Assembly (NCBI GenBank): GCA_002718735.1
Contig: PBFR01000026.1
Coordinates: 1-56,566 of the forward strand
Direction of reading: 5' to 3'
Source of the DNA: Halobacteriovoraceae bacterium
GTDB taxonomy: Bacteria; Bdellovibrionota; Bacteriovoracia; Bacteriovoracales; Bacteriovoracaceae
Length of the DNA: 56,566 bases
Part shown: in pieces, positions 29,002 to 43,798 of the stretch
How the letters are laid out: every line of letters starts with the position of its first letter
Numbering within the stretch: the stretch's first letter is position 1
The notes under the pieces: generated by a model
What the model was told of the DNA's origin: nothing
Database searches by the model: none
The model's input: only the letters and a program-made list of their open reading frames with translations
Program-made: the position numbers and the translations under genes

Positions 29002-29140
29002 TGGGGGTGAAATATATTCCCCCCGGAAAAATTGACCTATTCAATTTAAACCTATTAAAAACAGCGACTTAATTAATTGACTAAAGCGTTTTCTCAAATC
29101 TGCCGATCAGCTCTTTGATACTGTAATGTTGGGAGTTTTG

Positions 29141-29572
29141 ATGAAGCGTTACTTCTTATATGTCATTGTGGCCTTAATGCCCTTAGAGCTGATGAGTGAA
29201 GAACTTGGGAGATTCGGCAAGAAGGACTTTAAGTCTCCTGTAAGAGAATTTGGTGTTATCGCCACTAAGTCAGGATATTTCCCCGAGAGCATGTTTGCTT
29301 ATGTGGGGGAGAAAGCACGCTTCTTTATAACCTCAACGGACGATACTCCTCAGTGTTTCTTACTAAAGGATCATAATGTTTTTCTATCTGCCGAAAAGGG
29401 GAAAATGCAAGAGGCCATCGTTGAGTTTAAATACCCCGGCAGGTTTGAGTATTATTGCCCCTCTACAAAGTTTAAAGGGCATATAACAGTTGTTGAAAGA
29501 CCAGGAACGAAAAGCAAAGTTAAAAGAGAAATTGCCAGTGAAAAGAAAACATACTGGACACCGAGAGATTAA
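29141..29572 (+). CDS. Exported cupredoxin-like protein
   Basis: 143 aa with a signal peptide (M-K-R-Y-F-L-Y-V-I-V-A-L-M-P-L-E-L-M-S). The mature part reads as a cupredoxin sandwich: G-Y-F-P-E-S-M-F-A-Y-V-G-E-K-A-R-F-F-I-T, then C-F-L-L-K-D-H-N, and P-G-R-F-E-Y-Y-C-P as in the Cys-containing copper loop of cupredoxins. A full His-Cys-His-Met copper set is not clear, so electron transfer is uncertain. GGGAG lies 5 nt before the ATG at 29141. It precedes the CpaF-type ATPase by 12 nt on the same strand; the reason for the pairing is unknown. Confidence 0.65.
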   Translation: MKRYFLYVIVALMPLELMSEELGRFGKKDFKSPVREFGVIATKSGYFPESMFAYVGEKARFFITSTDDTPQCFLLKDHNVFLSAEKGKMQEAIVEFKYPGRFEYYCPSTKFKGHITVVERPGTKSKVKREIASEKKTYWTPRD

Positions 29573-29584
29573 TAGAGAGGATAA

Positions 29585-30727
29585 ATGAGCTCCGTATTTC
29601 AAGATGCCATTGGATCATTGCTAGCACCAATAAAGAACTTATTGGACGATGCCAGTGTTTCTGAAATTATGATCAATGGTCCGCATGAAATTTTTGTGGA
29701 GCAAAAAGGTCTTGTTCACAAAGTTCCAAATAAATTTCCGGATGAAGAGTCTCTTATGGCCTCTATGAGAGCGATTGCTCAATCAGTTGGCCGAATTATA
29801 GACTCAGATAATCCGAGACTGGACGCAAGACTTCCCGATGGATCAAGGATTGCAGTTGTCATTCCACCAATGGCCAAAAATGGTACTACGGTAGCTATTC
29901 GAAAGTTCTCCCAAGAGAAGCTTGGGCTTAAGGACCTTATAAACTTTGGCTCTCTTTCTGCGGACGCCGCAAGGTTTTTGGATTGTTGCATGTATGTGGG
30001 TAAGAATACCTTAGTGTCTGGCGGGACTGGGTCTGGTAAAACCACAATGTTGAATGTCCTAGGTTCTAGGATGCCAAAAACTCAGAGATTGTTGATTATT
30101 GAAGACTCAGCAGAACTTCAAATTAAGGCCGAGCATGTTGTGCAATTCGAAACAAGAAAAGCAAATAAGGACCATGCGATAAGCGAAGTTTCAATAAGAG
30201 ATTTAATCGAGTCAGCCTTGAGACTTAGGCCTGATAGAATTATTGTAGGTGAGGTTAGAGGTCAAGAGGCCTTGGACTTGTTAAATGCAATGGGAACAGG
30301 ACATGATGGATCGATGGGGACAGTTCACGCAAACACTCCATTGGACGCATGCACTAGGCTTGAAACTTTATGTCTGATGGGTGAAACCAAGATACCACCA
30401 GATGCAATTAGAAGCATGGTTGGTTCGGCCCTTCAAATTATAGTCCAATGTTCTAGGTATCACGATGGTGGTAGAAGAACTTCACATATATCTGAAGTGT
30501 TGGGAGTTGACCCTCATGGTAGATATATTGTGAGGGATATTTTTAAATGGGTTCAAACTGGGAAAGATCCTGAGACTGGTATGTTCCAAGGAGAGATGGT
30601 GCCTTGTGGATACGTACCTTCATTCTTTGAGCAGTTTGTGGCCAATAAGTTGCCATTTCCCAAGTCTAAATTCAGGCCGCCTGAATGGGCACTGCCTTTT
30701 CTTAGCGATAAAAAGAAGGTCGCCTAG
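29585..30727 (+). CDS. cpaF: CpaF/TadA-type secretion ATPase (Flp/Tad pilus)
   Basis: 380 aa, a T2SS/T4SS-E superfamily ATPase. N-terminal S-E-I-M-I-N-G-P and I-D-S-D-N-P-R-L-D-A-R-L-P-D-G-S-R typify CpaF. Walker A is G-G-T-G-S-G-K-T-T near 145, Asp-box I-I-E-D-S-A-E-L, Walker B-like I-I-V-G-E-V-R-G, and His-box G-S-M-G-T-V-H-A-N. It is a hexameric cytoplasmic motor for Flp pili. No tadB/C, cpaB/C or pilin gene is nearby, so it is an orphan copy; Bdellovibrio-like predators commonly have several. GAGG precedes the ATG. Its partner here is the cupredoxin-like gene just upstream. Confidence 0.88.
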   Translation: MSSVFQDAIGSLLAPIKNLLDDASVSEIMINGPHEIFVEQKGLVHKVPNKFPDEESLMASMRAIAQSVGRIIDSDNPRLDARLPDGSRIAVVIPPMAKNGTTVAIRKFSQEKLGLKDLINFGSLSADAARFLDCCMYVGKNTLVSGGTGSGKTTMLNVLGSRMPKTQRLLIIEDSAELQIKAEHVVQFETRKANKDHAISEVSIRDLIESALRLRPDRIIVGEVRGQEALDLLNAMGTGHDGSMGTVHANTPLDACTRLETLCLMGETKIPPDAIRSMVGSALQIIVQCSRYHDGGRRTSHISEVLGVDPHGRYIVRDIFKWVQTGKDPETGMFQGEMVPCGYVPSFFEQFVANKLPFPKSKFRPPEWALPFLSDKKKVA

Positions 30728-32251: not shown

Positions 32252-32851
32252 ATGTTGTCGAAGTTATTTGTTGCTCTTAACTTTAGATCTGATAGCTCTC
32301 TATCCCGTAAAATTGATGGCTTTAAGAAACGGTACGATCCTAAGTATCGCCAACGGTCCTTTCCGCACATGGCACTACTTGCGCCATTTGAGGTAAACTC
32401 CACCGATGTGAATAATCTTGGAGGGGAGCTTAAAGAAGAGTTGGAGAGTTTCTTTTATGGTCATAATTCTGCCATAAAACTTGCTTTTACGGGGGTGGGA
32501 ATTCTTCAAACTAAAAGAAACAATATTGTTCACCTTATTCCCAGTTATTCACCCGACTTAAAATTTTGTTCAGATCTTGTTTTGGATATTTGCAAGTCTT
32601 TCATTCCTGCTGGGCAGAAGTATAAAACTAACGATAAACAATTTCTTCCAATAGGATACTTCTCCTTGATGGACAACATGATTGAAGTCATTGAACAAAT
32701 TAAAATGGAGTTCAGTAGAAATAGCGAGCTAACTTTAGACGGTATCTCGCTGTATGAACAGAAAAATGGATCTTGGTATCTAAGGGAGGAACTTATTTCC
32801 TTTGAGGACAATCAGGACACATTTTTACAGCTGCAGGAGCGTTCGATATAA
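32252..32851 (+). CDS. 2H-phosphoesterase-like protein with degenerate motifs
   Basis: 199 aa. The opening L-S-K-L-F-V-A-L-N-F and F-P-H-M-A-L-L-A-P-F resemble the first half of the 2H (RNA ligase / LigT) superfamily, where an H-x-T/S motif stands in this position. Here it is H-M-A, and the second H-x-T is not found (P-I-G-Y-F stands where it would be). Either the protein is a non-catalytic relative or the resemblance is superficial. ATG at 32252 with GAGG 5 nt upstream; the in-frame TTG at 32219 lacks one. Its last codons contain the promoter of the next gene. Confidence 0.6.
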   Translation: MLSKLFVALNFRSDSSLSRKIDGFKKRYDPKYRQRSFPHMALLAPFEVNSTDVNNLGGELKEELESFFYGHNSAIKLAFTGVGILQTKRNNIVHLIPSYSPDLKFCSDLVLDICKSFIPAGQKYKTNDKQFLPIGYFSLMDNMIEVIEQIKMEFSRNSELTLDGISLYEQKNGSWYLREELISFEDNQDTFLQLQERSI

Positions 32852-32852
32852 T
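32824..32852 (+). promoter_or_regulatory. Strong promoter at the end of the 2H-like gene
   Basis: TTTACA (32824-32829), 17-nt spacer, perfect TATAAT (32847-32852). The -10 overlaps the upstream stop codon and ends 6 nt before the ATG at 32859, which has no ribosome site; the mRNA is predicted to be leaderless. Confidence 0.65.
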
Positions 32853-32858
32853 CTTTTC

Positions 32859-34037
32859 ATGATTAATTATAAAACACTGTTGTTGGCATCCATTTGGAGC
32901 ACTTTTTCTTTTGGGCAGGCTTCATACCTGCCTTTCTCAACAACCCTTGATAAGGGTGGAAACGAGGCCAGCGTTAAGGGCACCTACTGGCAATCTCAAA
33001 CTAGGATTAATAGTGACGGGGAAGAAGTACCTTTTGTTGATAATGAGAGTTTTCAAAAAGTTGATGTGGAATTGCTTGTTAAGTATGGATTGACTGATGA
33101 CTTGGAGATGGGTGTTGGTGCTCTTTATAGACAGAATCTGTCTGTGGAAGTAGTTGGAAATGAAGAGGAGAACTTAACCAGCAACGGAGTTAAGTCGGGA
33201 ATCTTTCAACTTAAATACTCTCTTCCTAGAGAAGGAAGATGGCAGTTCGCAGCCGAAGTAAGCTTTTTAAAAGACTTCATTTCCAATTCCGAAGGTTCGA
33301 AGGATTTAGTATTGGGCGATGATGGAGATAGCACCTCGTTTGGGTTATCAGGCTCGTATCGCTTCCCGTCAATGAACTTTATTTCAGGTAGGGTTCATTA
33401 CAGAAATCCTTCCAGTGCGTTATCCAGTGAGGTTGTCTCTAGTGCTGAGTACGTGCTTCTTTGGAAGCGTGTATCCCTTTTGGGAGGAGTTGAAAATGTC
33501 ACCTCCCTGAATCAGGATCCTTATGATGATGATCCATCAGAGAAACCCAGTGTCAACACTGGAAGCACCTATCTATACAACAGCATAAATCGTTCTTGGA
33601 CTGCCCCCTACATAGGATTTAATTTCTCTCTTGGAGACCATTGGAGAGTGGAGACAAGAGCTGAAACTCGATTAAATACAGTGTCTAGCGACAAAGGGAG
33701 TGCGTTTTCATTGATGATTGCTAGAAGAAACTCTGCACCTAGGGCCCTAGAGCAAAAAAGACAAGCGTTTAAGCAGTACTCCATTGATGCCAGGGTAGTA
33801 AAACTAACTAAATCAAAATCGTCGGTAATTATTGATGTAGGATTAAGTCAAGGTATGGAAAAAGGCTCAAAGGTTGATTTTTATCACTTTGACTATTTAG
33901 GTGGAAACGAATTGATTGCGTCGGGATATACTGTCCGCGTTGGAACTTCTAAATCTATGGTGAAAATAACCAAAAGATACTCTAAAAAACAAGTTCAAGA
34001 TGGAACAATTGCCAGATCTGGGCTTGTTAAAGAGTAG
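32859..34037 (+). CDS. Outer-membrane beta-barrel-like protein with C-terminal FlgT-like domain
   Basis: 392 aa. Signal peptide (M-I-N-Y-K-T-L-L-L-A-S-I-W-S-T-F-S-F-G-Q). Residues ~25-300 show repeated amphipathic strands with many aromatic, Ser and Gly residues, as in outer-membrane barrels (V-D-V-E-L-L-V-K-Y-G-L, G-F-N-F-S-L). Residues ~305-392 change character: I-D-V-G-L-S-Q-G-M-E-K-G-S-K-V-D-F-Y resembles the C-terminal module of FlgT-like proteins, which sits in the periplasm. An envelope-anchored protein is likely; the ligand is unknown. It is translated from a predicted leaderless mRNA. Confidence 0.65.
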   Translation: MINYKTLLLASIWSTFSFGQASYLPFSTTLDKGGNEASVKGTYWQSQTRINSDGEEVPFVDNESFQKVDVELLVKYGLTDDLEMGVGALYRQNLSVEVVGNEEENLTSNGVKSGIFQLKYSLPREGRWQFAAEVSFLKDFISNSEGSKDLVLGDDGDSTSFGLSGSYRFPSMNFISGRVHYRNPSSALSSEVVSSAEYVLLWKRVSLLGGVENVTSLNQDPYDDDPSEKPSVNTGSTYLYNSINRSWTAPYIGFNFSLGDHWRVETRAETRLNTVSSDKGSAFSLMIARRNSAPRALEQKRQAFKQYSIDARVVKLTKSKSSVIIDVGLSQGMEKGSKVDFYHFDYLGGNELIASGYTVRVGTSKSMVKITKRYSKKQVQDGTIARSGLVKE

Positions 34038-34118: not shown

Positions 34119-34853
34119 ATGATGCGTTTAAAGCACATCTTTACAATCATCTTGATAGGCCTGTGGAGCTCGGCCGCAATCTCTAAAACTTTCTTAAACC
34201 AGTTTGTTCAGTTTGAATTGCCAACTGGATGGAATTGTATGATTGAAGGAAGTGAGTGGGTTTGCCAATCGGAAAATGATGAAAGGAAGAAAGAGGCCAT
34301 TATTATCCTGGCCGCAAAATATAGGGGACCTCAAGATTCCTTGGAGGAATATCAGGCATATTTAAAGAAAGCAAAAACTTATCAACTACCTGGTGGAAAG
34401 TCTCAACGTTCAGAGGCGAAATATGCAAAGCTTAGCAGTGTCAATAATCATAGGTGGGTGGATGCACTTCACCTCGCTAGTGAGGTTCCTGGATTTTACA
34501 CAAGATATTTAGCTACTGTAAAAGAAGACCTCGGTGTGGCGGTGACATTCTCAGTTACCAAGGACTTGTACAGCGCCTATCAAGGGATCTTCGACAACGT
34601 GGTGGCATCATTAAGAGTTTTCAGACAGAAAAAGCAAAACCTTGCCGATATCAAGCTTAAAGGAAGTGGTGCAGGAGGAGAAGCAGACTTTGATGACACG
34701 ACCTTTGTGCCTGCCGATCAAAACTTTGATATTGGAATGGCAAAAAAGAAAAGAGAATCTGATGATTCTAGCTCTGATGAGAATCTTCTATATCTACTCG
34801 CCTTGCTAGTTGCAGGTGCCTTTATTCTAATTAAACTCAAGGGTAGAAAATAA
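34119..34853 (+). CDS. Exported protein with C-terminal membrane anchor, upstream of protein A
   Basis: 244 aa. Signal peptide (~1-22, ending A-A-I-S-K), a soluble domain (~25-170), a low-complexity acidic/Lys/Ser linker (~180-222, including F-D-D-T-T-F and a D-D-S-S-S-D-E stretch), and a terminal membrane helix (L-L-Y-L-L-A-L-L-V-A-G-A-F-I-L-I) with a basic K-L-K-G-R-K tail that would face the cytoplasm. This makes it a single-pass inner-membrane protein with its main domain in the periplasm. No family recognised. AAGGA precedes the ATG. A terminator separates it from protein A, 178 nt downstream. Confidence 0.7.
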   Translation: MMRLKHIFTIILIGLWSSAAISKTFLNQFVQFELPTGWNCMIEGSEWVCQSENDERKKEAIIILAAKYRGPQDSLEEYQAYLKKAKTYQLPGGKSQRSEAKYAKLSSVNNHRWVDALHLASEVPGFYTRYLATVKEDLGVAVTFSVTKDLYSAYQGIFDNVVASLRVFRQKKQNLADIKLKGSGAGGEADFDDTTFVPADQNFDIGMAKKKRESDDSSSDENLLYLLALLVAGAFILIKLKGRK

Positions 34854-34862
34854 TTAGATATT

Positions 34863-34890
34863 GGGAGGAGTTAGTCCTCCCTTTTTTTTT
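34863..34890 (+). terminator. Intrinsic terminator after the 244-aa anchored protein gene
   Basis: GGGAGGA (34863-34869) and TCCTCCC (34875-34881) pair perfectly around GTTAG, followed by nine Ts. Confidence 0.92.
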
Positions 34891-35030
34891 GCCTAAAAAA
34901 GTAGGCGAGCTAAAAGCTTGAGTTTATTTACCTTGCCAATAAATCCAGTAGGTTAGTTAAATCCATTAAGATAATACAAGGGGATGACGATAAAATAGAG
35001 TCGTGTACCATTGATGCTTAAAGGAAGCCT

Positions 35031-38000
35031 ATGAAGCTTATTCTTAGAAATTCTCTTGCCGGACTTTCTACTTACCTAATGACAGTAAGTCTTATTCTTT
35101 CTCCAATCCCAGGAGTAGGAGTTAGTTACGCAAGTGCTCAAGACTCTGTCGACTGCTATGACTCAAATAAAGATTCAGACTCAGAACGTCTTTATAAAAC
35201 TGGTTGCGACTTAGAAGATATTAAAAAGAAAGCTAAGTTTTCCAATTACACGGATCATAACTCTAATATTATGGCGATGCTTGAGCAAGCAGTTGCTGGA
35301 ATGATGGGCGTTGTTATGATCCAGTCGCTTAGTAACGGTTATCTATATGAAGTTGACCCTTTGTTGTATGGAGATGACTGTTCTGCGAATAAGGCCGGCA
35401 AATATACAATTAGAATCGCTCAACTAGGAGCTCTTTCTTATATACTTGGCGATATTAAAGCAAATATGGAATTTAGCAAAGCAAGTGAGAAAGCACTCGA
35501 TATGGTGTCTAGTACTGGTGAACAAGAGAAACTCGGTAAGAACTATAAGAACAAACAAATTGAAACTCTTGATACTTTAATTGAAGTTTTTGAAAAACAA
35601 CAAAAAGGGATAAAAGCTAAACAAACTCTTTCCCTTATTGCTGAAGCAGCATTCGCAGCATCTCTTGGATTGGAGGTTGCAGGAATTTTTAAATGTAATG
35701 CTCAGTGTGCAAAGGATAAAGCAGAGAAAATGGCGCAGCTTACAAAGTTTCAGACTGCCGCATCCAGTGCAATCGCTGTGGCAAATGCAAAAGTTGCAAA
35801 AGCGTCTGTGTGCCCGGGGCCAACCTGTAATCCAGCTGCGGTAACAAATTGTACAGCAACTGCAGGAAGCCTTACCGGCCTTATGACAATGTTCAATGCA
35901 TCTGTTTCGGAAAAGCAAGCGACAGACTCTGCCAAAGGAACGGTCAAGGCTGCTACTCAAGTTAAGAAGACTGCTTTTTGGACAGGACTTTGGGCGAAAG
36001 TTAAAAACTTTTTTAAAAGCGAGTCTGCTGGCCTTAACGCCGTAGGAAAGTTGCCTGTTGAGGATTTAGCCGATGATGCTATCAAGGGAACTGTCTTTAC
36101 ACAGGATCAGGCAGAAATGATTGCAGAGTTTTCAACTGATCAATCTACCATAAGTTCGGTAATCGCGAATACCCACATCTGTTCTAAGTTTGATATACCT
36201 TCTGACGGTCCGGCCTTGGAGGCCAGTGTTAAAAGCGCTTTGAATGCTTTTGTGAATTATAAAAATTCTCCGATTGAGTGTTGTGGAGGAGCCGGACTTA
36301 CCATTCAGCAACAGAACTCGCTCTATGCTCACAACTCAATTATGGCCGCAGAGATAAACACTTTGCAAGGTGAGCCCTCAATAGGTCTTTCTGCTAAGAT
36401 TGCAACCGCCAAGGCAACTGAGAAAGCTCAGCTTGAAGTAATGAAGAAAGGATTTGACCAAATATTAGATCAGATAAATATAGGTGGAAATTCCAATCTG
36501 TTTAATCCATTTAGTGCTGTAGGCGAAGCTCAGGTCATTAAAGGAACATTGAAAGGTTACGGTGTGCCTCAAACATCACTATTTTCAAGCACAAAAGATA
36601 TGAGAGTGTTTGGAGTATTTGGTGGTGCAGAAGAGGGTACTAGTAAACTTTTTGATAAGAACTTCAAACATTATGTTAAATCAAACTTCCACTCGACACT
36701 TATAAGACTTGCATTCGCTTCTCAAATGGAGAGTTTTGATCCGAACAATCCTCAGGCTGAAATCGAAGAGATTGCAATGTTGGGAGAGAAGGTCGAGAAG
36801 ATTATGTTTCTTTTTAATCAGCTCGTAGAGCAAGAGAAGCCTCTTCAATTAGCGAATACTGATTTTAAGAATAAGAGCTTATGGAAAGAAGTCGTATCTA
36901 AGGTAGCCGAATTGGTAATGCCAAGTGCTCACGCTTGGATAAGTAGTGTCGGTGGGCAAGTTGCCGCTGGGGCGGGACTGAAAATGGTTAAAAGTAAGCT
37001 TGGGCTCAAGGGACCATGGTCAGCAGTATTAAATGTTGGCTCTGATTTTATGATTATGAATGCTCTGCTGGGCAATTTCGCAAGAAACTATGGTCTTGTT
37101 TCTCCAAAGGGAAGGGCCTACACGTGGGGAGCAATGGCAGCAGTAAATTTAGCTGTTTATATGATGGATAAAAAAGCAGAAGGTAAGATTAAAGGTTACC
37201 TTCAGACTGTTAAACAACATAGAGATCGATATGTTGATACTGCTGGTTTTTCTCGATATGGAGATGGAGACAAGTCAAGTGAGACTAGAGACGGTAGCGG
37301 TAAGCTCAAAACAAAAGATGGTGCCCAATTTGAGAAATATATCAGCAACGGTGTTGCCATAAAGGCATGTGCAGTCCCCAAGGCCGATGGATTTGCTCCT
37401 TCTACTTGTCCGGCAAAAGTTTCAAAGTCTAGTTTCTCTTTGCCTAGCATGGATCGAAGCCTGGCCCAAAGTGTAACTCCTGCTCACTTATCAAGTGCTA
37501 AGTTTGTGTCTCAAGTGTCTAGAGGGCTTGCTACTGGGGCAAGGGATGCAAGCTCATTGGCATCTATGGACTTGGCAAAAATTGAAGCACAGAATAAGGC
37601 CATGAGAACTTTTAATGCGAAGGCGTTAAAGAAACTTGATGAACAGGAATCTTCTAATAATAAAAATGATATTTCTAGCTCACCACCTCTGGCTAAACTT
37701 ATTGCTAGTGGAAAGAAGGCAATCGTTGGAGCCTCTCAAGCAGCTATTGGTAAAGGTTTCCCTAGCTCTGACAATATCACTACGACAAGTGAAGAAAGTG
37801 ACGAGGGCACGGGTGAATCAAGAAAAGTTACCAGAACTTCAGCCTTTGGGGGACTGGGGTCAAAAAGTGTGCAGACACCACAAGGGGCAAATTACGATTT
37901 GGATCTTTTTGATGAAGAGCAGGACATTGATATCGGCCAAAAGCCTGGAGAAAAACTAGAAAGTTTTGTTCTAAATCATGACGATATTCATAAGACCAAG

Positions 38001-38075
38001 CAAACCTCGATTTTTAAAATTCTATCCAACCGATACTTGCTTTCATACCCAAAGGTTTTGGAAGAAAAGAAATAA
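35031..38075 (+). CDS. Protein A: large exported protein of unknown family, shares C-terminal motif with B and C
   Basis: 1014 aa. Signal peptide (~1-36, ending S-A-Q), then a Cys-containing region, hydrophobic helices near 82-102 (M-M-G-V-V-M-I-Q-S-L) and ~130-145, a coiled-coil-like helix (I-E-V-F-E-K-Q-Q-K-G-I-K-A-K), another hydrophobic segment (E-A-A-F-A-A-S-L-G-L-E-V), a long soluble part, and further hydrophobic helices ~650-720. The end has D-D-I-H-K and then S-I-F-K-I-L-S-N-R-Y at 993-1002. Several segments match protein C (findings), so A and C look paralogous. No known family. AAAGGAAG lies just before the ATG. Probably spans or lines the inner membrane. Confidence 0.75.
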   Translation: MKLILRNSLAGLSTYLMTVSLILSPIPGVGVSYASAQDSVDCYDSNKDSDSERLYKTGCDLEDIKKKAKFSNYTDHNSNIMAMLEQAVAGMMGVVMIQSLSNGYLYEVDPLLYGDDCSANKAGKYTIRIAQLGALSYILGDIKANMEFSKASEKALDMVSSTGEQEKLGKNYKNKQIETLDTLIEVFEKQQKGIKAKQTLSLIAEAAFAASLGLEVAGIFKCNAQCAKDKAEKMAQLTKFQTAASSAIAVANAKVAKASVCPGPTCNPAAVTNCTATAGSLTGLMTMFNASVSEKQATDSAKGTVKAATQVKKTAFWTGLWAKVKNFFKSESAGLNAVGKLPVEDLADDAIKGTVFTQDQAEMIAEFSTDQSTISSVIANTHICSKFDIPSDGPALEASVKSALNAFVNYKNSPIECCGGAGLTIQQQNSLYAHNSIMAAEINTLQGEPSIGLSAKIATAKATEKAQLEVMKKGFDQILDQINIGGNSNLFNPFSAVGEAQVIKGTLKGYGVPQTSLFSSTKDMRVFGVFGGAEEGTSKLFDKNFKHYVKSNFHSTLIRLAFASQMESFDPNNPQAEIEEIAMLGEKVEKIMFLFNQLVEQEKPLQLANTDFKNKSLWKEVVSKVAELVMPSAHAWISSVGGQVAAGAGLKMVKSKLGLKGPWSAVLNVGSDFMIMNALLGNFARNYGLVSPKGRAYTWGAMAAVNLAVYMMDKKAEGKIKGYLQTVKQHRDRYVDTAGFSRYGDGDKSSETRDGSGKLKTKDGAQFEKYISNGVAIKACAVPKADGFAPSTCPAKVSKSSFSLPSMDRSLAQSVTPAHLSSAKFVSQVSRGLATGARDASSLASMDLAKIEAQNKAMRTFNAKALKKLDEQESSNNKNDISSSPPLAKLIASGKKAIVGASQAAIGKGFPSSDNITTTSEESDEGTGESRKVTRTSAFGGLGSKSVQTPQGANYDLDLFDEEQDIDIGQKPGEKLESFVLNHDDIHKTKQTSIFKILSNRYLLSYPKVLEEKK

Positions 38076-38138
38076 GGGTGCCAACATTGTTGGCCGCTCT
38101 TATTCCTCATAAATATCCAACATGCTGATTTTATGTTG

Positions 38139-38173
38139 CTCTATATCTTTAAATATAGAGTTAAGTGTATAAT
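38139..38173 (+). promoter_or_regulatory. Hairpin and -10-like box upstream of protein B
   Basis: CTCTATAT (38139-38146) and ATATAGAG (38153-38160) form an 8-bp AT-rich hairpin. A perfect TATAAT follows (38168-38173), 68 nt before the ATG of protein B. No convincing -35 was found. The hairpin might be a leftover terminator of protein A or a regulator site. Confidence 0.35.
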
Positions 38174-38241
38174 TTCACTAAGGTTACGGACCTAATCCTC
38201 CGATATAGCCTAATGACGGAAAGTCTCTTATTGGAGAAATT

Positions 38242-40665
38242 ATGAAAAGATTGCATAAGAATATCATTTTCACCCTAGTTGCGTTCTTACCATTATCTAG
38301 CTTTGGCTCTGAACAGGAGCAAGTCAAAAAAAGTTGTATGGCAAATAGCTCACAGCTGGAAGCTAAGATGAATGAGATGAAGGAATTATCTAATATCGTA
38401 TCTGATAATAAAGAATTAGCTAAAAGCGTTGATTATGCCGAAAAATGTTATGAAAAAGCAACCGGTAAACAAGGCGTAGATTGTGTAAATAACACAGTAA
38501 CTGAAAAAGTTACCATCGCCAAAAGTAAGGAAGATGCTCTAGGTGCATTTTGCGATCATTATGCCCTATTTACTTTTACGAAAGAGGAAATTCAAAAAAT
38601 GAAGCATTTAGTAGATGCATCTGCACACTTGGATACCTCTGGCTCAACGAGCATTAGTACTTCGATGGGAGGCGCCCTTAAAGGTATCAGCAGCAAATTC
38701 TTGTCTAATAAAAACATTAATAAACCACTTAAGTGTGACCGTTACTTGGGAGACATTGAGAGTGGTGGACTTGCAACTAGGATTTATGAAGAGATTACTA
38801 ATTCCATTGATAATCCAGATCGTCCTTTCAGGTTTAAAAAGGTTTGGAGTCCCCAAGCATGTTTTACCGATGATAATAGTGTAGGCGTCTTTCGTATTGC
38901 CCAAGGTAATGGCAGTCAGTTCTTTACTAATATGAACGCCAAAGTTGAATTGGAATCTTCTACTTATTGCAAAGACCACGCTAGGAACTATTGCTTTCCT
39001 GCATTTGCTTTTTACCATGCTTGTAACCAATTTTCTGGGGCACAAGGAAGTGAAGATGAGATTAGAAAAGCAGCCTGCATGAAGGATGCAAAGAAGGCCA
39101 TAGAAAACTGTGCAAATGGAGACTACGAATTAGCACAGTTGCCAAGAGATTTTCAAGAAACAAAAAATGTTAGGGAATGGTACAAGGTTAATGAAGAGAA
39201 TTCGACAGCTAGACTTCTTATGGCTGAGCCAATGGCTAACTTTGATAATAACCTTAATCGATCTCCAACCCCAATCAAGCCCTCTTTTGGGGATACTATG
39301 TTTGAAATGTATTCCACATGTGTGATCTTAAGAAAAGCGGCGGAATCACAGACCGGTGAGGACGGCCGTCTAGTTGTAGGTGAGAAGGTAAGGTCTCTTT
39401 CTAATACATATGAATGTGTAAGAAGTGCCCCGTGGAATGCAGACTTCAATTACTGCTCAAAGGCAAGTCAGTTTGGGGATGGTATTTTTGATATTGGTGC
39501 TGCCGGATTGCATACTGCGATGCAGATTGGTAGCTCGATGAAAGAGTCTGAGATTCAGGGAGAATTAGCTAGCGGAATAGCCAGTGGAGATGAAACTGCA
39601 TATATAAAAGCACAAAAATCTAAAGTTGAAAGAGAGGCTACCCAAGCTCAGAATAGAGGACATATAAATGCTGCTCATGCCACTGGCCTAGGTACTGCTA
39701 TTTATAACTTTCCAAATGCCCAGCAATTTGCCAAGGCCTGCGAGCAGCCTTTGGATGGCTACTTTGAAAATCAGGCATTAAACTGTGGAGTCCGATGGGT
39801 TGCAGATAACAATGATGAAGTAAGAAGCGGGCTATTCTCTAACCAGGCTGTTAGGGGAAATTTGATGTATAAAATGGCACAGAAAGTGGGACAGGCCACC
39901 TTTGAATATGTCATGTCCAATCAACTCGACAATCAAGCAGATCAGCTTCGCGATATTCAAAAAGAGTATGACAAGTTCTTCGCACAAGATGCGGTAACCC
40001 CCGAGTTGGTAGGAGTAGATTACTGTGAGCAGAACCCTAATGCTCCAAGTTGTGCCGGTGGTAGAACCACTGTGGACTCCGGAAGCTTCTCAGGCTTTGA
40101 CTCTGCAAATTTCCAAAACGGACAGGGCGGAAATTTTTCTTTCTCTAAAGATGCTGATCCTGAGATCACTAATCAAGAACTTACGCCTGAAGAGAGAGAG
40201 GCAAGGGAGAAGCTTGCTGACTTTATGGGAAAAGGTGGAGCTAAGTCCTTCGGATCAGACTTTAGCGCTCCAGGTGCTGCATCGGCTAAGTATGGCAAGT
40301 CTGGTGGCGCCGGCGGAGGCGGCGGCGGCGGCGGCGGAGGAGGCGGAGGTGGATCAACTGCACCAGCTCCTCAGACGGGAGGCGAAGCAGTTAATTCACA
40401 AGGTATCACCAAGAAAAGAAATAAAATGATATCGGGAAGCTCTAATATTAGTTACCGTTCAGGCGGCAGTGCTGGAAAATCAAAGAAGGATACAAATCCC
40501 TTCTCAAATATGCTGGGTGACAAGAGCTCTAGGAAAGTCGCCAACACTGTAAATGATATCGCTCCATCTCAGAGTAAGTTGTTTGAAAAAATTAGTAATA
40601 GGTATGGAAAGGTTTCAAAAGAAAAGAGAATATACAACTTCAGTGGCGATGAAAATGGAATTTAA
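38242..40665 (+). CDS. Protein B: large Cys-rich exported protein with a glycine tract, shares the C-terminal motif
   Basis: 807 aa. Signal peptide (~1-22, ending S-F-G-S), then a predominantly soluble, Cys-rich region (over a dozen cysteines, for instance Y-C-K-D-H-A-R-N-Y-C and N-Y-C-S-K) without membrane segments, so it is probably periplasmic or extracellular and disulfide-bonded. Residues ~625-720 are low complexity, including 14 consecutive glycines. The C-terminus has N-D-I-A and then K-L-F-E-K-I-S-N-R-Y (779-788). No family recognised. GGAG precedes the ATG. Its stop overlaps the thioesterase start. Lies 166 nt after protein A on the same strand. Confidence 0.75.
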   Translation: MKRLHKNIIFTLVAFLPLSSFGSEQEQVKKSCMANSSQLEAKMNEMKELSNIVSDNKELAKSVDYAEKCYEKATGKQGVDCVNNTVTEKVTIAKSKEDALGAFCDHYALFTFTKEEIQKMKHLVDASAHLDTSGSTSISTSMGGALKGISSKFLSNKNINKPLKCDRYLGDIESGGLATRIYEEITNSIDNPDRPFRFKKVWSPQACFTDDNSVGVFRIAQGNGSQFFTNMNAKVELESSTYCKDHARNYCFPAFAFYHACNQFSGAQGSEDEIRKAACMKDAKKAIENCANGDYELAQLPRDFQETKNVREWYKVNEENSTARLLMAEPMANFDNNLNRSPTPIKPSFGDTMFEMYSTCVILRKAAESQTGEDGRLVVGEKVRSLSNTYECVRSAPWNADFNYCSKASQFGDGIFDIGAAGLHTAMQIGSSMKESEIQGELASGIASGDETAYIKAQKSKVEREATQAQNRGHINAAHATGLGTAIYNFPNAQQFAKACEQPLDGYFENQALNCGVRWVADNNDEVRSGLFSNQAVRGNLMYKMAQKVGQATFEYVMSNQLDNQADQLRDIQKEYDKFFAQDAVTPELVGVDYCEQNPNAPSCAGGRTTVDSGSFSGFDSANFQNGQGGNFSFSKDADPEITNQELTPEEREAREKLADFMGKGGAKSFGSDFSAPGAASAKYGKSGGAGGGGGGGGGGGGGGSTAPAPQTGGEAVNSQGITKKRNKMISGSSNISYRSGGSAGKSKKDTNPFSNMLGDKSSRKVANTVNDIAPSQSKLFEKISNRYGKVSKEKRIYNFSGDENGI
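40312..40353 (+). repeat. GGC/GGA codon tract encoding 14 glycines
   Basis: A run of 14 glycine codons, mostly GGC and GGA, inside the gene of protein B, striking in an AT-rich genome. Loss or gain of whole codons would not shift the frame, so the tract can vary in length freely. It lies between an acidic/Ser region and an S-T-A-P-A-P linker. Confidence 0.9.
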
Positions 40666-41056
40666 TAAGTTTATATATACTTTGATGATTAAAGAAAATC
40701 ATTTAGATACTTTTGGTCATGTAAATAATGCTGCTTATTTAACTCTTTATGAGGAAGCAAGATGGGATTTCATTACTAAAAATGGGTATGGACTGGACGT
40801 CATCCAGAGAGAACAAAAGGGTCCTGTTGTTCTCGATGTAAATCTTCGTTTCAAAAGGGAACTTAAAAATAGACAGCTGATAAGTATCCATTCCCAATCT
40901 CAAGACATGTCTTCAAAAATAATGAAAATGAAACAAGTCATGATTAACCCTGAGGGGGAAGTTGCAAGCGAAGCTTTATTTACATTTGGATTCATGGATA
41001 TGAAGTTAAGAAAGCTAGTAGAGATGCCTCAAGATTGGCTTAATGCCGTTACTTAG
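40649..41056 (+). CDS. Acyl-CoA thioesterase, 4HBT hot-dog fold (YbgC/FadM-like)
   Basis: 135 aa. The active-site motif H-L-D-T-F-G-H-V-N-N-A-A-Y-L contains the catalytic Asp followed by G-H-x-N-N, and an E-A-R-W helix follows, as in 4-hydroxybenzoyl-CoA thioesterase family enzymes such as YbgC and FadM. It hydrolyses acyl-CoA thioesters in the cytosol. It starts within the last codons of protein B (17-nt overlap), so its translation depends on B. ATG at 40649 is used; the ATG at 40655 is an alternative, and neither has a clear ribosome site. Why a thioesterase is coupled to protein B is unclear. Confidence 0.82.
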   Translation: MKMEFNKFIYTLMIKENHLDTFGHVNNAAYLTLYEEARWDFITKNGYGLDVIQREQKGPVVLDVNLRFKRELKNRQLISIHSQSQDMSSKIMKMKQVMINPEGEVASEALFTFGFMDMKLRKLVEMPQDWLNAVT

Positions 41057-41715
41057 GCTGGACTAGTATTTATTACATAACGCTCATATATTTCCTCAAC
41101 CTTCTCCAAAACAAAGTCTTTAAACAGTAACTGTGACTCATCAATATTTTGTTTGAAAATATCCAATGTATAATGCTGTTCGCATTGAAGAGATATCGGT
41201 GTGAAGGAAAGATGCCAAGGCTCTACTGAAACACCACCTAGGTCTTCTTTATATGGCCTGTGAAATTTAAACCTGTTCAGATTTTCATCAATCCAGACAT
41301 AGAGCTTTGAGAAGTCTTCGTTGCACTCGTTAATGGTGAGTGCTAGTTGGTCTCTGGGCTTCACACTTTTATCGTAGATGTCAATCTCCGTTCCCCAATG
41401 ATGTCTACTCGCACCAGGAATTGCAGACCAGGCCATTATTGCTTCTAAGATTTCTTGATTTGAGGCCGTGTCAAAATTTAAAATTTTCTCCTCTCTGGTT
41501 AGAAGTGTTCTCTTACCGCTGGCCTTGGCGTTCCAAATCGCTAGTTGCTTATCAAAGTTTCTGTACGCACTTGCAACTTCAATATGAATGTCTGCCTCTC
41601 TGGCTGCACTCTGCAATTTTTTTAATTCGAGCAAGGCCTCAGGATGGATCTGATATAGATCTTTAGTTTGGACAAGGTAAGAGTTCTCTCTTCCGGTAAG
41701 TTCTTTATAGTTCAT
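41053..41715 (-). CDS. VanY-like D-alanyl-D-alanine carboxypeptidase (LAS family)
   Basis: 220 aa. LAS metallopeptidase core: E-V-A-S-A-Y-R-N-F-D-K-Q, S-R-H-H-W-G-T-E-I-D-I (zinc His and Asp) and E-P-W-H-L-S-F (catalytic Glu and third zinc ligand His). VanY/DacB-type enzymes cut the terminal D-Ala from peptidoglycan stem peptides. No signal peptide is seen, so either it is cytosolic or it leaves by another route. It starts four nt after the stop of protein C (TAA-CGAA-ATG) and is thus coupled to it; the ATG at 41736 inside protein C is an alternative start. Its stop overlaps the convergent thioesterase gene. Confidence 0.82.
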   Translation of the reverse strand: MNYKELTGRENSYLVQTKDLYQIHPEALLELKKLQSAAREADIHIEVASAYRNFDKQLAIWNAKASGKRTLLTREEKILNFDTASNQEILEAIMAWSAIPGASRHHWGTEIDIYDKSVKPRDQLALTINECNEDFSKLYVWIDENLNRFKFHRPYKEDLGGVSVEPWHLSFTPISLQCEQHYTLDIFKQNIDESQLLFKDFVLEKVEEIYERYVINTSPA

Positions 41716-41719
41716 TTCG

Positions 41720-43798
41720 TTATTCTTCTTTTTCATCAGGGAATAGTCTTCTAAGTGCACTTTTCTTATACCTTATTGAAAGTATCTTAAAAAGGTCTGT
41801 GTCTGCACCCTTATGGATATCACCTTTCATGGAGAAATTTGTATTCATGATCTTTTCTTTTTCGCTTAAAACCTCAATTCCACCTGAAGAGGTGTCATTG
41901 CCGAAACCGAAGTCAAAATCATCCTCTTTTTTTCCTGTAGTTGTTTTAAAGCTACCAGCACTTTTCATATCAAGGCCTTTGGTGTCATTGGTGGCTTCAG
42001 TTTTTGACTCTGTTTCTGCCTTGGCGGCCGATTGTGTATTGTTTGAGCTTCCTAGGCTAGCCAGCTCTGTTGGAGTGCTCGCTCCAAAACTTTTCTTGAA
42101 TAGGGCGGGAGAGGCCTTTAGGAAGTTACCCTCTAGTTTTTTTACTTTATCCACAATTGCTTTATAAGGAGCTTTCTCCGCTAACTTTTCTGTAATCTTG
42201 CTGATCCTGGCCGCTTTCTTGTTGAGGTCAGCGGTATCTAAGCTTGCTAGCTCAAGCCTGCCAGTGGCAAGGGAGTTTGATTGCTTTAAGAGTGAGGGCA
42301 CCTCAAGGCTACTTGGTAAATTAATTGTGCCAAGATTTGCACTCGCTACAACGGGACATTTGGTCGGATACTTTTTACAGATTGAGCAGTCCTCGTCAGA
42401 CTTTCCTTCATTGGTGATGCACTCATTTACTGGTGAATAACCTAAAGTATTTCCACCCGCATAACTTCCTGCCTTAAGATTTATATCGCTATTGTAAGAG
42501 ACACAAACTTCTCTGTTCTTTCTTTGCATGTTAGGAGAGCCATCTTCATTAAAGCAATAACATTCTGGTACTGTGGGGTTGTCCAACTTATCCTCAGTAC
42601 ATGCCACGCCAAACCTCGCTCCACCTGTATCAATGAAGGATACTAAAATTTCATCTAAGGCCTTGATCCTGTCTTCACTTATCTGTTCATTTTTCTTAGC
42701 CGAATTTCTTAACATATTGGAGTAGGTAGTTAAAACACCGGCCAGTGCGGCCCTTACCCAAGGGGTTGCCATTCCCTTATCAATCCATTTCTTTACCGTC
42801 TCTCCGAGTGGAGTCTTAGCCGAGGCCTTTATTGCTTGAGTGGGCTTGGTTGCGTCCACTTGCAATGAAGCTGCTGTGGGGGCATCTGCAGCTACTACAT
42901 CAGAAATGGCTAAACCTTGATAAATTTTTCTAGTTATCATTTCAGCAAACTGAGGCAAAGTAACTTCACTCAGATAGGAAAATTCGGTGAATAGGGCCTC
43001 AAAGTCTTTGTTCATCCAAAGATCCGCTAGATTGATTGTTTCGTTGCGATTGGCCGGTGTGTAATAACCTCCCTTAATCGCATTATCCAGTGTGCCTGTA
43101 CCTGTGCTGGAGGCTAGACAATTACCCATTGGAGAACCTAAACCCATCTGTACCTGCTCGTAAATAGCAGCGGCAACAGCAGCTGCATAAAGTGTAGTAG
43201 CGAGTGTGTGACCCTTCTTTCTAGTTTGAGATACCTTCATCCTGATTCTTTCTTGTTCCTTCATCGTTTCAAGAGCGAGGGTTTGGGCCTTAGTTGCTTC
43301 GGTATCTTCGGAATTCTCATCTTGTATTACTTTTATGTCAGCTTCGTATTTTTTATGGAGTTTTTTAAGGCTCTTACTGTAGCTTAATTGACTGGTAACT
43401 TCTGTCAGGGTGCCAGCAACTGCTCCGCCTAGCATAAGCCAAACAGAGGTTGCTTTACATGATTTGAAGGCCTCTTTGTTAATTATGAGGTAGTAGCCCG
43501 CCAGAAGTCCGACCGCTAAAGGCACGCTGGCCCTGTGCCAGTTTCCATCAGATACTTCACTAGGTTTTTTAAAATCCTGAAGCTCCCTCTTTACATTGTC
43601 CTTGAAGCAGCTAGAGTATTCGTCTCCTGTTTTTCCTTCACATAAGTTCGCGTTAGTCTTCGTGGATACTGTCTTGTTATTTAGAACACATCTATTAAGC
43701 TCAGGGTGCATGTATTGCCCTGTTGGACAATCATCGGCCAGGGCTGAAGTTGTGAAAACTATTAATGATATAAATGAAATTAGTTTCTTGAGACTCAT
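41720..43798 (-). CDS. Protein C: exported/membrane protein, distant paralogue of A, shares the C-terminal motif
   Basis: 692 aa. Signal peptide (~1-21, ending S-A-L-A-D), a small Cys-bearing N-terminal domain, two hydrophobic helices near 92-110 and 120-136 (V-P-L-A-V-G-L-L-A-G-Y-Y, W-L-M-L-G-G-A-V-A-G), a long coiled-coil-like helix (~150-200), a third hydrophobic region (A-A-A-V-A-A-A-I-Y) and a Cys-rich segment (~400-490; C-S-I-C-K-K-Y-P-T-K-C). Residues 668-677 read D-L-F-K-I-L-S-I-R-Y, preceded by G-D-I-H-K. Layout and several segments match protein A. AAAGG precedes the ATG. Followed closely by the VanY-like gene. Confidence 0.75.
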   Translation of the reverse strand: MSLKKLISFISLIVFTTSALADDCPTGQYMHPELNRCVLNNKTVSTKTNANLCEGKTGDEYSSCFKDNVKRELQDFKKPSEVSDGNWHRASVPLAVGLLAGYYLIINKEAFKSCKATSVWLMLGGAVAGTLTEVTSQLSYSKSLKKLHKKYEADIKVIQDENSEDTEATKAQTLALETMKEQERIRMKVSQTRKKGHTLATTLYAAAVAAAIYEQVQMGLGSPMGNCLASSTGTGTLDNAIKGGYYTPANRNETINLADLWMNKDFEALFTEFSYLSEVTLPQFAEMITRKIYQGLAISDVVAADAPTAASLQVDATKPTQAIKASAKTPLGETVKKWIDKGMATPWVRAALAGVLTTYSNMLRNSAKKNEQISEDRIKALDEILVSFIDTGGARFGVACTEDKLDNPTVPECYCFNEDGSPNMQRKNREVCVSYNSDINLKAGSYAGGNTLGYSPVNECITNEGKSDEDCSICKKYPTKCPVVASANLGTINLPSSLEVPSLLKQSNSLATGRLELASLDTADLNKKAARISKITEKLAEKAPYKAIVDKVKKLEGNFLKASPALFKKSFGASTPTELASLGSSNNTQSAAKAETESKTEATNDTKGLDMKSAGSFKTTTGKKEDDFDFGFGNDTSSGGIEVLSEKEKIMNTNFSMKGDIHKGADTDLFKILSIRYKKSALRRLFPDEKEE

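Follow-up and report, generated by a model that had tools for sequence, protein, structure and literature searches.

The C-terminal domains of the type IX secretion system (T9SS; TIGR04183/TIGR04131 kinds) mark many Sec-exported proteins of a single lineage at the C-terminus, and are β-sandwiches of about 70-100 residues. PEP-CTERM, MYXO-CTERM and LPXTG-type tails are short C-terminal tags that follow a variable linker, occur in many copies per genome and carry a hydrophobic membrane segment with a basic end. Here we describe a C-terminal tail shared by three large proteins, A, B and C, encoded on a 56,566-nucleotide stretch of DNA from a Halobacteriovoraceae bacterium (contig PBFR01000026.1 of assembly GCA_002718735.1; hereafter the window, meaning the whole stretch). 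We favour, with a probability of about 0.52, the reading that this tail serves for targeting or docking, as a motif at the C-terminus of large Sec-exported proteins of one order of the Bdellovibrionota.

A conserved C-terminal tail

Proteins A (open reading frame (ORF) of 1014 aa, 35031..38075, forward strand), B (ORF of 807 aa, 38242..40665, forward strand) and C (ORF of 692 aa, 41720..43798, reverse strand) have N-termini that resemble signal peptides when read by eye and by a crude rule. An original prediction, made from the letters alone, had reported that all three end in a common motif 12-19 residues from the C-terminus, and this was confirmed. A ends in ...DDIHKTKQTSIFKILSNRY followed by 12 aa, B in ...NDIAPSQSKLFEKISNRY followed by 19 aa and C in ...GDIHKGADTDLFKILSIRY followed by 15 aa. 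The whole tail, about 30-40 residues long, corresponds to residues 979-1014 of A (FVLNHDDIHKTKQTSIFKILSNRYLLSYPKVLEEKK; 37965..38072, forward strand), 771-807 of B (NDIAPSQSKLFEKISNRY...; 40552..40662, forward strand) and 655-692 of C (FSMKGDIHKGADTDLFKILSIRYKKSALRRLFPDEKEE; 41723..41836, reverse strand). The tails of A and C are matched by a tail hidden Markov model (HMM) that was built from 20 tails with B excluded; the tail of B aligns with that of C in hhalign and is conserved in alignment A7. The consensus reads D-I-N-x(5)-S-I-F-K-[IV]-[IL]-[ST]-x-R-Y-x-K-S, with the conserved core D-I-x(6)-S-[IL]-[FW]-x-[IV]-[IL]-[ST]-x-R-Y-x-x-S.

We evaluated the tail in 82 stretches encoding 1052 predicted proteins, comprising 79 usable stretches (40 + 39) together with the window, L001 and L002; these were mostly chosen for tail matches, and the proportions are not genome-wide. 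With a tail called at a domain expect value (E) <0.01 by the A5 tail HMM or a B-tail HMM, 142 of the 1052 proteins carry one. Every match lies within 45 aa of the C-end (121/121 for the tail HMM and 30/30 for the B-tail HMM), 108 of the 121 tail-HMM matches are to non-training sequences, and decoys made by reversing and by shuffling each of the 1052 proteins gave 0 matches. R-Y stands 5 to 37 residues from the C-end (median 15) in the 138 of 142 tail proteins anchored by a loose pattern, which requires R, N, T or G then Y or F and thereby inflates the R and Y percentages. The C-end residues themselves are variable.

In both the A family (0.888; median 0.423) and the C family (0.486; median 0.172), no 28-residue window is better conserved than the tail. 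In the B family a poly-Gly stretch (0.52) exceeds the tail (0.44), the median being 0.165. A low-complexity linker rich in small and charged residues precedes the tail, and Cys is absent from the linkers and tails of all 142 proteins, compared with 2% in their bodies. None of the 142 has any 15-mer above a Kyte-Doolittle (KD) mean of 1.6 in its last 60 aa, and the tail has no hydrophobic anchor. By the crude rule, 124 of 133 complete tail proteins have a signal-peptide-like N-terminus, compared with 89 of 201 other proteins of at least 350 aa. Together these data establish the tail as real, order-wide, C-terminal only in this set, strongly conserved and joined to its proteins by a Cys-free low-complexity linker.

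Distribution of the tail

The nearest named relative found was the metagenome-assembled genome Halobacteriovoraceae bacterium SAT180 (G001), whose A homologue is 74% identical and whose gene order around A, B and C is the same as in the window. In the 129 genomes of the order containing SAT180, taken to be Bacteriovoracales, the tail HMM matches 125 at E<=0.01, with 1 to 16 sites per genome (7 in G045). Homologues carry the motif, as do many further exported proteins, and A and C align better than chance (below), the opposite of the two outcomes that the original prediction had set against itself. In a phylum sample of 319 genomes, the tail HMM matches 108 at E<=0.001, all except G307 in the order; with the split counted from genome numbering, this is 107 of 111 genomes inside the order and about 1 of 208 outside. 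The sole outside match, in G307 (L143:3242-4270; E=3.5e-5), is to a 343-aa exported-looking protein that contains Cys.

Four genomes of the order, G070, G071, G075 and G108, gave no match to the tail HMM at E<=0.01. The stretch from G108 encodes a C-family protein (profile E=1e-37) with the diverged end ...SLFERISNGYLRLRR, and that from G075 a protein of similar layout by eye with the end ...VFKSISGRYQQKSSLFF... (B-tail HMM E=4e-3), which suggests that the tail may diverge there rather than vanish.

Profiles of the whole proteins gave a similar picture. The full A profile matches 101 of the 129 genomes, most listed matches spanning just the last ~200 positions, and the B profile matches 116 at E<=0.001, a few of them weakly. 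A further family, D (527-564 aa in seven members), has a profile that matches 122 at E<=1e-6, partly via C. Protein-database searches returned 9, 7 and 7 proteins including the query among the 7992 or 7993 top word-sharing candidates scored, where absence means little; for A these included 8 non-self homologues of 27-74% identity.

Genome G064 carries 16 tail sites at E<=0.01. A stretch from it (L114:1-20000) encodes a tandem run of four tail proteins; three have 1433-1552 aa and the remaining one is truncated at the stretch end, and 65 residues of one such giant match a FEA1-related lipoprotein model below threshold (NCBIfam E=9e-7, 27.9 bits for a cut-off of 250).

Relationship of A, B and C

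A and C had been proposed to be paralogues. BLASTP aligned them at E=5e-4 over 218 positions ending at R-Y, B being similar to neither at that level, and comparison of the two profiles gave E=1e-34. When the tails were removed the bodies still aligned (hhalign E=2e-23, score 197), a score that 0 of 30 column shuffles reached (top score 21.6; 27.5 for the reversed control). Residues 569-966 of A (36735..37928, forward strand) are homologous by hhalign to the tail-less second half of C, and the LATG/ASL and DTAG/DTGG stretches singled out in the original prediction do align with each other. By profile comparison, A and C are paralogous.

The layout attributed to A and C stood in part. At the N-terminus is the signal peptide, followed by a coiled coil with hydrophobic helices on either side; C and D then have a Cys-rich domain (C-x-C ... 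C ... C), and the linker and tail come last. The coiled-coil helical module is shared (A 70-240 against C 85-245, hhalign E=2.9e-10, 0 of 40 shuffles reaching it); it covers about residues 79-259 of A (35265..35807, forward strand), where a low-confidence model has long helices, and residues 85-245 of C (43064..43546, reverse strand; alignment A6). One Gln of the coiled coil does not vary within the aligned sets (Q172 of C in A6, Q176 of A in A3). The "two or three hydrophobic helices" of the prediction, by comparison, are just moderately hydrophobic, which leaves their membrane insertion putative: only the signal peptide of window C exceeds a KD mean of 1.5 across 19 residues, and window A has two such segments (79-97 and 202-220). 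The Cys-rich domain of C spans residues 400-481 (42356..42601, reverse strand), with the pattern C...CYCF...C...C...C..C...C in invariant Cys columns of alignment A8, and a similar pattern is present in family D. B is Cys-rich, with its poly-Gly stretch and a variant of the tail, and has an NPF box ~20 residues ahead of the latter.

The tails were also compared alone. Those of A and C matched at E=9.5e-18, those of B and C at E=2.1e-6 and those of B and A at E=3.2e-4, with 0 of 40 shuffles reaching the score in each case. The helical region of B showed no similarity to that of A (17 of 40 shuffles reached the score) and resembled that of C weakly (probability 57%, E=1.1e-4, 0 of 40 shuffles).

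An iterated profile search seeded from family D recruits C, which is a multi-copy family, and A, and a search seeded from A went from 8 seeds to 95 hits in three rounds. As judged from these searches, A, C and D are one superfamily, for which no described family was found. It has 109 members at E<1e-4, of which three are tail-less, two being N-terminal halves of split genes and one a gene cut by a contig end.

Possible role of the tail

The original prediction suggested that the shared end might be a docking or sorting signal, which is plausible from the sequences. Under the docking reading, the large tail proteins would be exported by the Sec pathway, after which the tail would hang free on its linker in the periplasm or beyond. 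A predicted, lineage-specific envelope partner would bind it there, with the conserved core as the bound peptide, and would position the tail proteins at a common site or assemble them into a single kind of structure. Recognition should not need the terminal carboxylate, because 5-37 residues follow R-Y.

Two main types of body carry the tail, A/C/D (106 of 142 tail proteins) and B (22), any relationship between them being distant at most; a further 14 tail proteins match neither, although distant descent may still link these bodies. One of the 14 orphans (L112:3979-7293; 1105 aa, genome G045) has a DUF3011 domain (Pfam 26.9 bits, cut-off 25) with the tail at its end, and is the best single case for a transferable module. 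In addition, the C-family gene is split into two ORFs in L073:5041-7442 and L077:9934-12049, an N-terminal helical part and a tail part. The tail is on the second ORF and, read by eye, each ORF has its own signal-like start, which suggests independent export of the tail half. These split genes, the linker, the DUF3011 protein and the orphans favour docking.

The predominance of one superfamily favours a structural end-piece instead. In this explanation, which we regard as possible and the most serious of the competitors, the tail is what stays conserved at the C-terminus of a single ancient, rapidly diverging superfamily, and its role is in folding or self-association, for example by packing on its own body or on the tails of paralogues, rather than in sorting. 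It is consistent with the 106 of 142 tail proteins that fall in one superfamily, with the split or cut genes that account for its only tail-less members (3 of 109), with the weak resemblance of the helical region of B to that of C and with the orphans L102 and L130, which, read by eye, are large and have helical and hydrophobic stretches like other tail proteins. It fits less well with the low-complexity linker between tail and body, with a tail that is conserved where the bodies are not, with its presence on the DUF3011 protein and on bodies matching neither group, and with split genes that keep the tail on the part without the helical module.

Co-variation of the tails within a genome gave a hint in favour of docking. 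In G127 and G128 Trp takes the place of the tail Phe jointly in B, C, D and one further family, at 7 of 9 and 9 of 11 tail sites (stretches L128, L129, L135, L136, L144, L145, L163, L164 and L167); elsewhere the B tail has Phe in all 17 aligned members. A joint change of this kind is what an altered common receptor would produce.

A number of observations weigh against the docking reading. G127 and G128 look closely related, with identical or near-identical tails, so that a single event among close relatives probably accounts for the F-to-W change, and F and W are mixed in other genomes (G005, G041 and G042). In a permutation over genomes, the tails of different families were no more alike within a genome than between genomes (p of 0.80 for C-B, 0.67 for C-A, 0.49 for A-B, 0.09 for C-D and 0.17 for B-D, with 3 to 17 genomes each). 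Common descent by itself could account for much of the sharing in a set dominated by A/C/D, and B may be a very distant member of the same superfamily. The 14 orphans are not independent, since a single tandem array contributes four of them and two are orthologous to each other, and some of their tails are weak (E up to 2e-3), the weakest perhaps being false. Neighbouring genes in the fetched loci show no dedicated machine. The amphipathicity of the tail (0.72) is barely higher than that of shuffles (0.66), and AlphaFold2 gave poor models with no fold support for C (8 sequences; predicted local distance difference test (pLDDT) 45.5, predicted template modelling score (pTM) 0.32) and for A (10 sequences; pLDDT 46.9, pTM 0.36). 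The tail is helical only in such low-confidence models, and structure prediction does not decide between docking and a structural end-piece.

Improbably, the tail might act before or during export, by binding a cytosolic chaperone or a targeting factor, or might end in the cytoplasm. The proteins are very large and partly hydrophobic, and an odd number of membrane crossings could turn the tail towards the cytoplasm. However, 17 of 18 B-family proteins have no segment above KD 1.5 beyond the N-terminus, the Cys-rich domains that precede the tail would be in keeping with an oxidising compartment, and the tail halves of split genes have their own signal-like start. Less probable by some way is a degradation or processing tag for an envelope protease. 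C-terminal tags for periplasmic proteases exist, but those read at the carboxylate are unlike a motif whose R-Y stands a median of 15 residues before an end of varying residues, and it would be surprising for a tag that marks so many large proteins for destruction to be this strongly conserved. Finally, a coincidence of composition in low-complexity C-termini, which can mislead, as the match of the C-terminal region of B to an unrelated phage spanin model (E=9.6e-6) illustrates, is refuted by the decoys and sits badly with the 0 of 40 shuffles and with the near-absence of the tail outside the order.

Returning to docking, a more ambitious form of it is that one receptor gathers many large, fast-evolving Sec-exported proteins through their common tail, in an envelope assembly route specific to Bacteriovoracales, and presents or assembles them at a single location, perhaps the prey-facing pole. 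We offer this tentatively and consider it rather unlikely as a whole.

Gene neighbourhood

Tail genes occur in two types of cluster. In type I, a barrel protein and a 244-aa protein are accompanied by A, B, a thioesterase, in some loci an Arg/Asn-rich protein, a VanY-type D,D-carboxypeptidase, C and a C92 peptidase. In type II, a single C gene or a tandem pair lies next to housekeeping genes; the DTW-domain, ABC-F and similar genes of this type, named from reading of the sequence, were considered as a source of the receptor and set aside as housekeeping.

In the window, the 244-aa exported protein (34119..34853, forward strand), which has a C-terminal hydrophobic segment, is encoded upstream of A and adjoins a putative outer-membrane barrel gene (32802..34037, forward strand; Pfam Phenol_MetA_deg 22.5 bits, cut-off 22). 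The original prediction placed the 244-aa protein in one envelope complex with A, B and C. A member of its family (mean column identity 61%, 13 sequences) is indeed encoded next to a tail gene at 13 of the 14 loci fetched from the order, which favours that idea, but those loci were picked for their tail genes. Across the phylum, the family occurs in 297 of 319 genomes. At all 9 loci fetched from outside the order, the 244-aa gene lacks a nearby tail or family protein, and in 8 of the 9 the barrel family adjoins it. The 244-aa family thus extends well past the range of the tail and is not tied to it, and a specific complex is not supported. The barrel and 244-aa pair was dropped as a candidate tail receptor on the same phylum-wide occurrence.

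A VanY-type D-alanyl-D-alanine carboxypeptidase gene (41053..41760, reverse strand; Pfam PF02557, E=2.2e-31) lies directly downstream of C on the same strand. The VanY family is present in 17 of 43 loci and is directly beside a tail gene in 16 of these 17, a position that points to cell-wall work nearby. Arg/Asn-rich, low-complexity, exported-looking proteins (mean 342 aa) occur near VanY and B in 8 loci, for example L071:5746-6786, L078:7035-8414 and L101:9705-10742, and are not found in the window. Further upstream, a CpaF-like pilus/secretion ATPase gene and a gene for a small exported protein, both read from the sequence (29126-30727), keep their position before enolase in several related loci.

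Comparison with known families and sorting systems

The original prediction recognised no known family for A, B or C, and the database comparisons agree. No Pfam model reaches its cut-off in the three proteins, NCBIfam and PADLOC gave no match of weight for them, and PADLOC gave no match for 5 proteins. Sequence searches of the PDB returned nothing of weight for A (best E=0.9) or the C family (E=0.4) and none for the 244-aa family. The B profile gave 86 PDB matches up to E=1, of which the listed best 60 all fall in positions 545-661, a poly-Gly region, and many are single-chain variable fragment (scFv) linkers; we regard these as an artefact.

B has one PHROG match, between residues 744-799 (window 40471-40662) and phrog_8821, an Rz-like spanin, which two close B relatives also match (E=3.5e-5 and 0.0024) and 0 of 5 other B proteins do. 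Identity as an Rz-like spanin was rejected, as the match covers just 56 of the 807 aa of B, at its C-end, and phage records give no significant match: tblastn against them found none for the A tail and, for the B tail, just 2 at chance level (E=5 and 7). The match is probably a composition effect. A plasmid search gave no match for the C tail.

Neither the literal tail motif nor a "C-terminal sorting signal" in Bdellovibrionota was found in open-licence PMC papers, and no title on such a tail appears among the matches listed from the broader literature. The terms "C-terminal" and "signal peptide" were not found in the available portion of PMC11656739. In PMC5760749, RAST annotation leaves 39-40% of protein-coding genes hypothetical in two Halobacteriovorax marinus strains.

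The tail provides a single sequence tag by which widespread and variable exported proteins across an order of predatory-type bacteria can be grouped, and it predicts a shared envelope partner. It resembles the T9SS signals in being a C-terminal module on many proteins of Sec-exported type in one lineage, and differs from them in size and fold, with 30-40 aa and a helix in low-confidence models as opposed to a β-sandwich of 70-100 aa. Consistent with this, no T9SS sorting model was among the NCBIfam matches at E<=1 for 18 tail proteins and the 244-aa protein. With PEP-CTERM, MYXO-CTERM and LPXTG-type tails it has in common a short C-terminal tag after a linker in many copies per genome, whereas a hydrophobic segment is seen in 0 of 142 tails, and no curated CTERM model was among the NCBIfam matches for the 18 tail proteins. 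The tail thus works like known C-terminal sorting tails but the tested proteins fall outside the T9SS and CTERM definitions. As with C-terminal sorting and docking signals in general, the same tail stands on several exported proteins of one genome and, if the more ambitious form of the docking reading is true, an envelope assembly route would here do the job of sorting systems known from other phyla.

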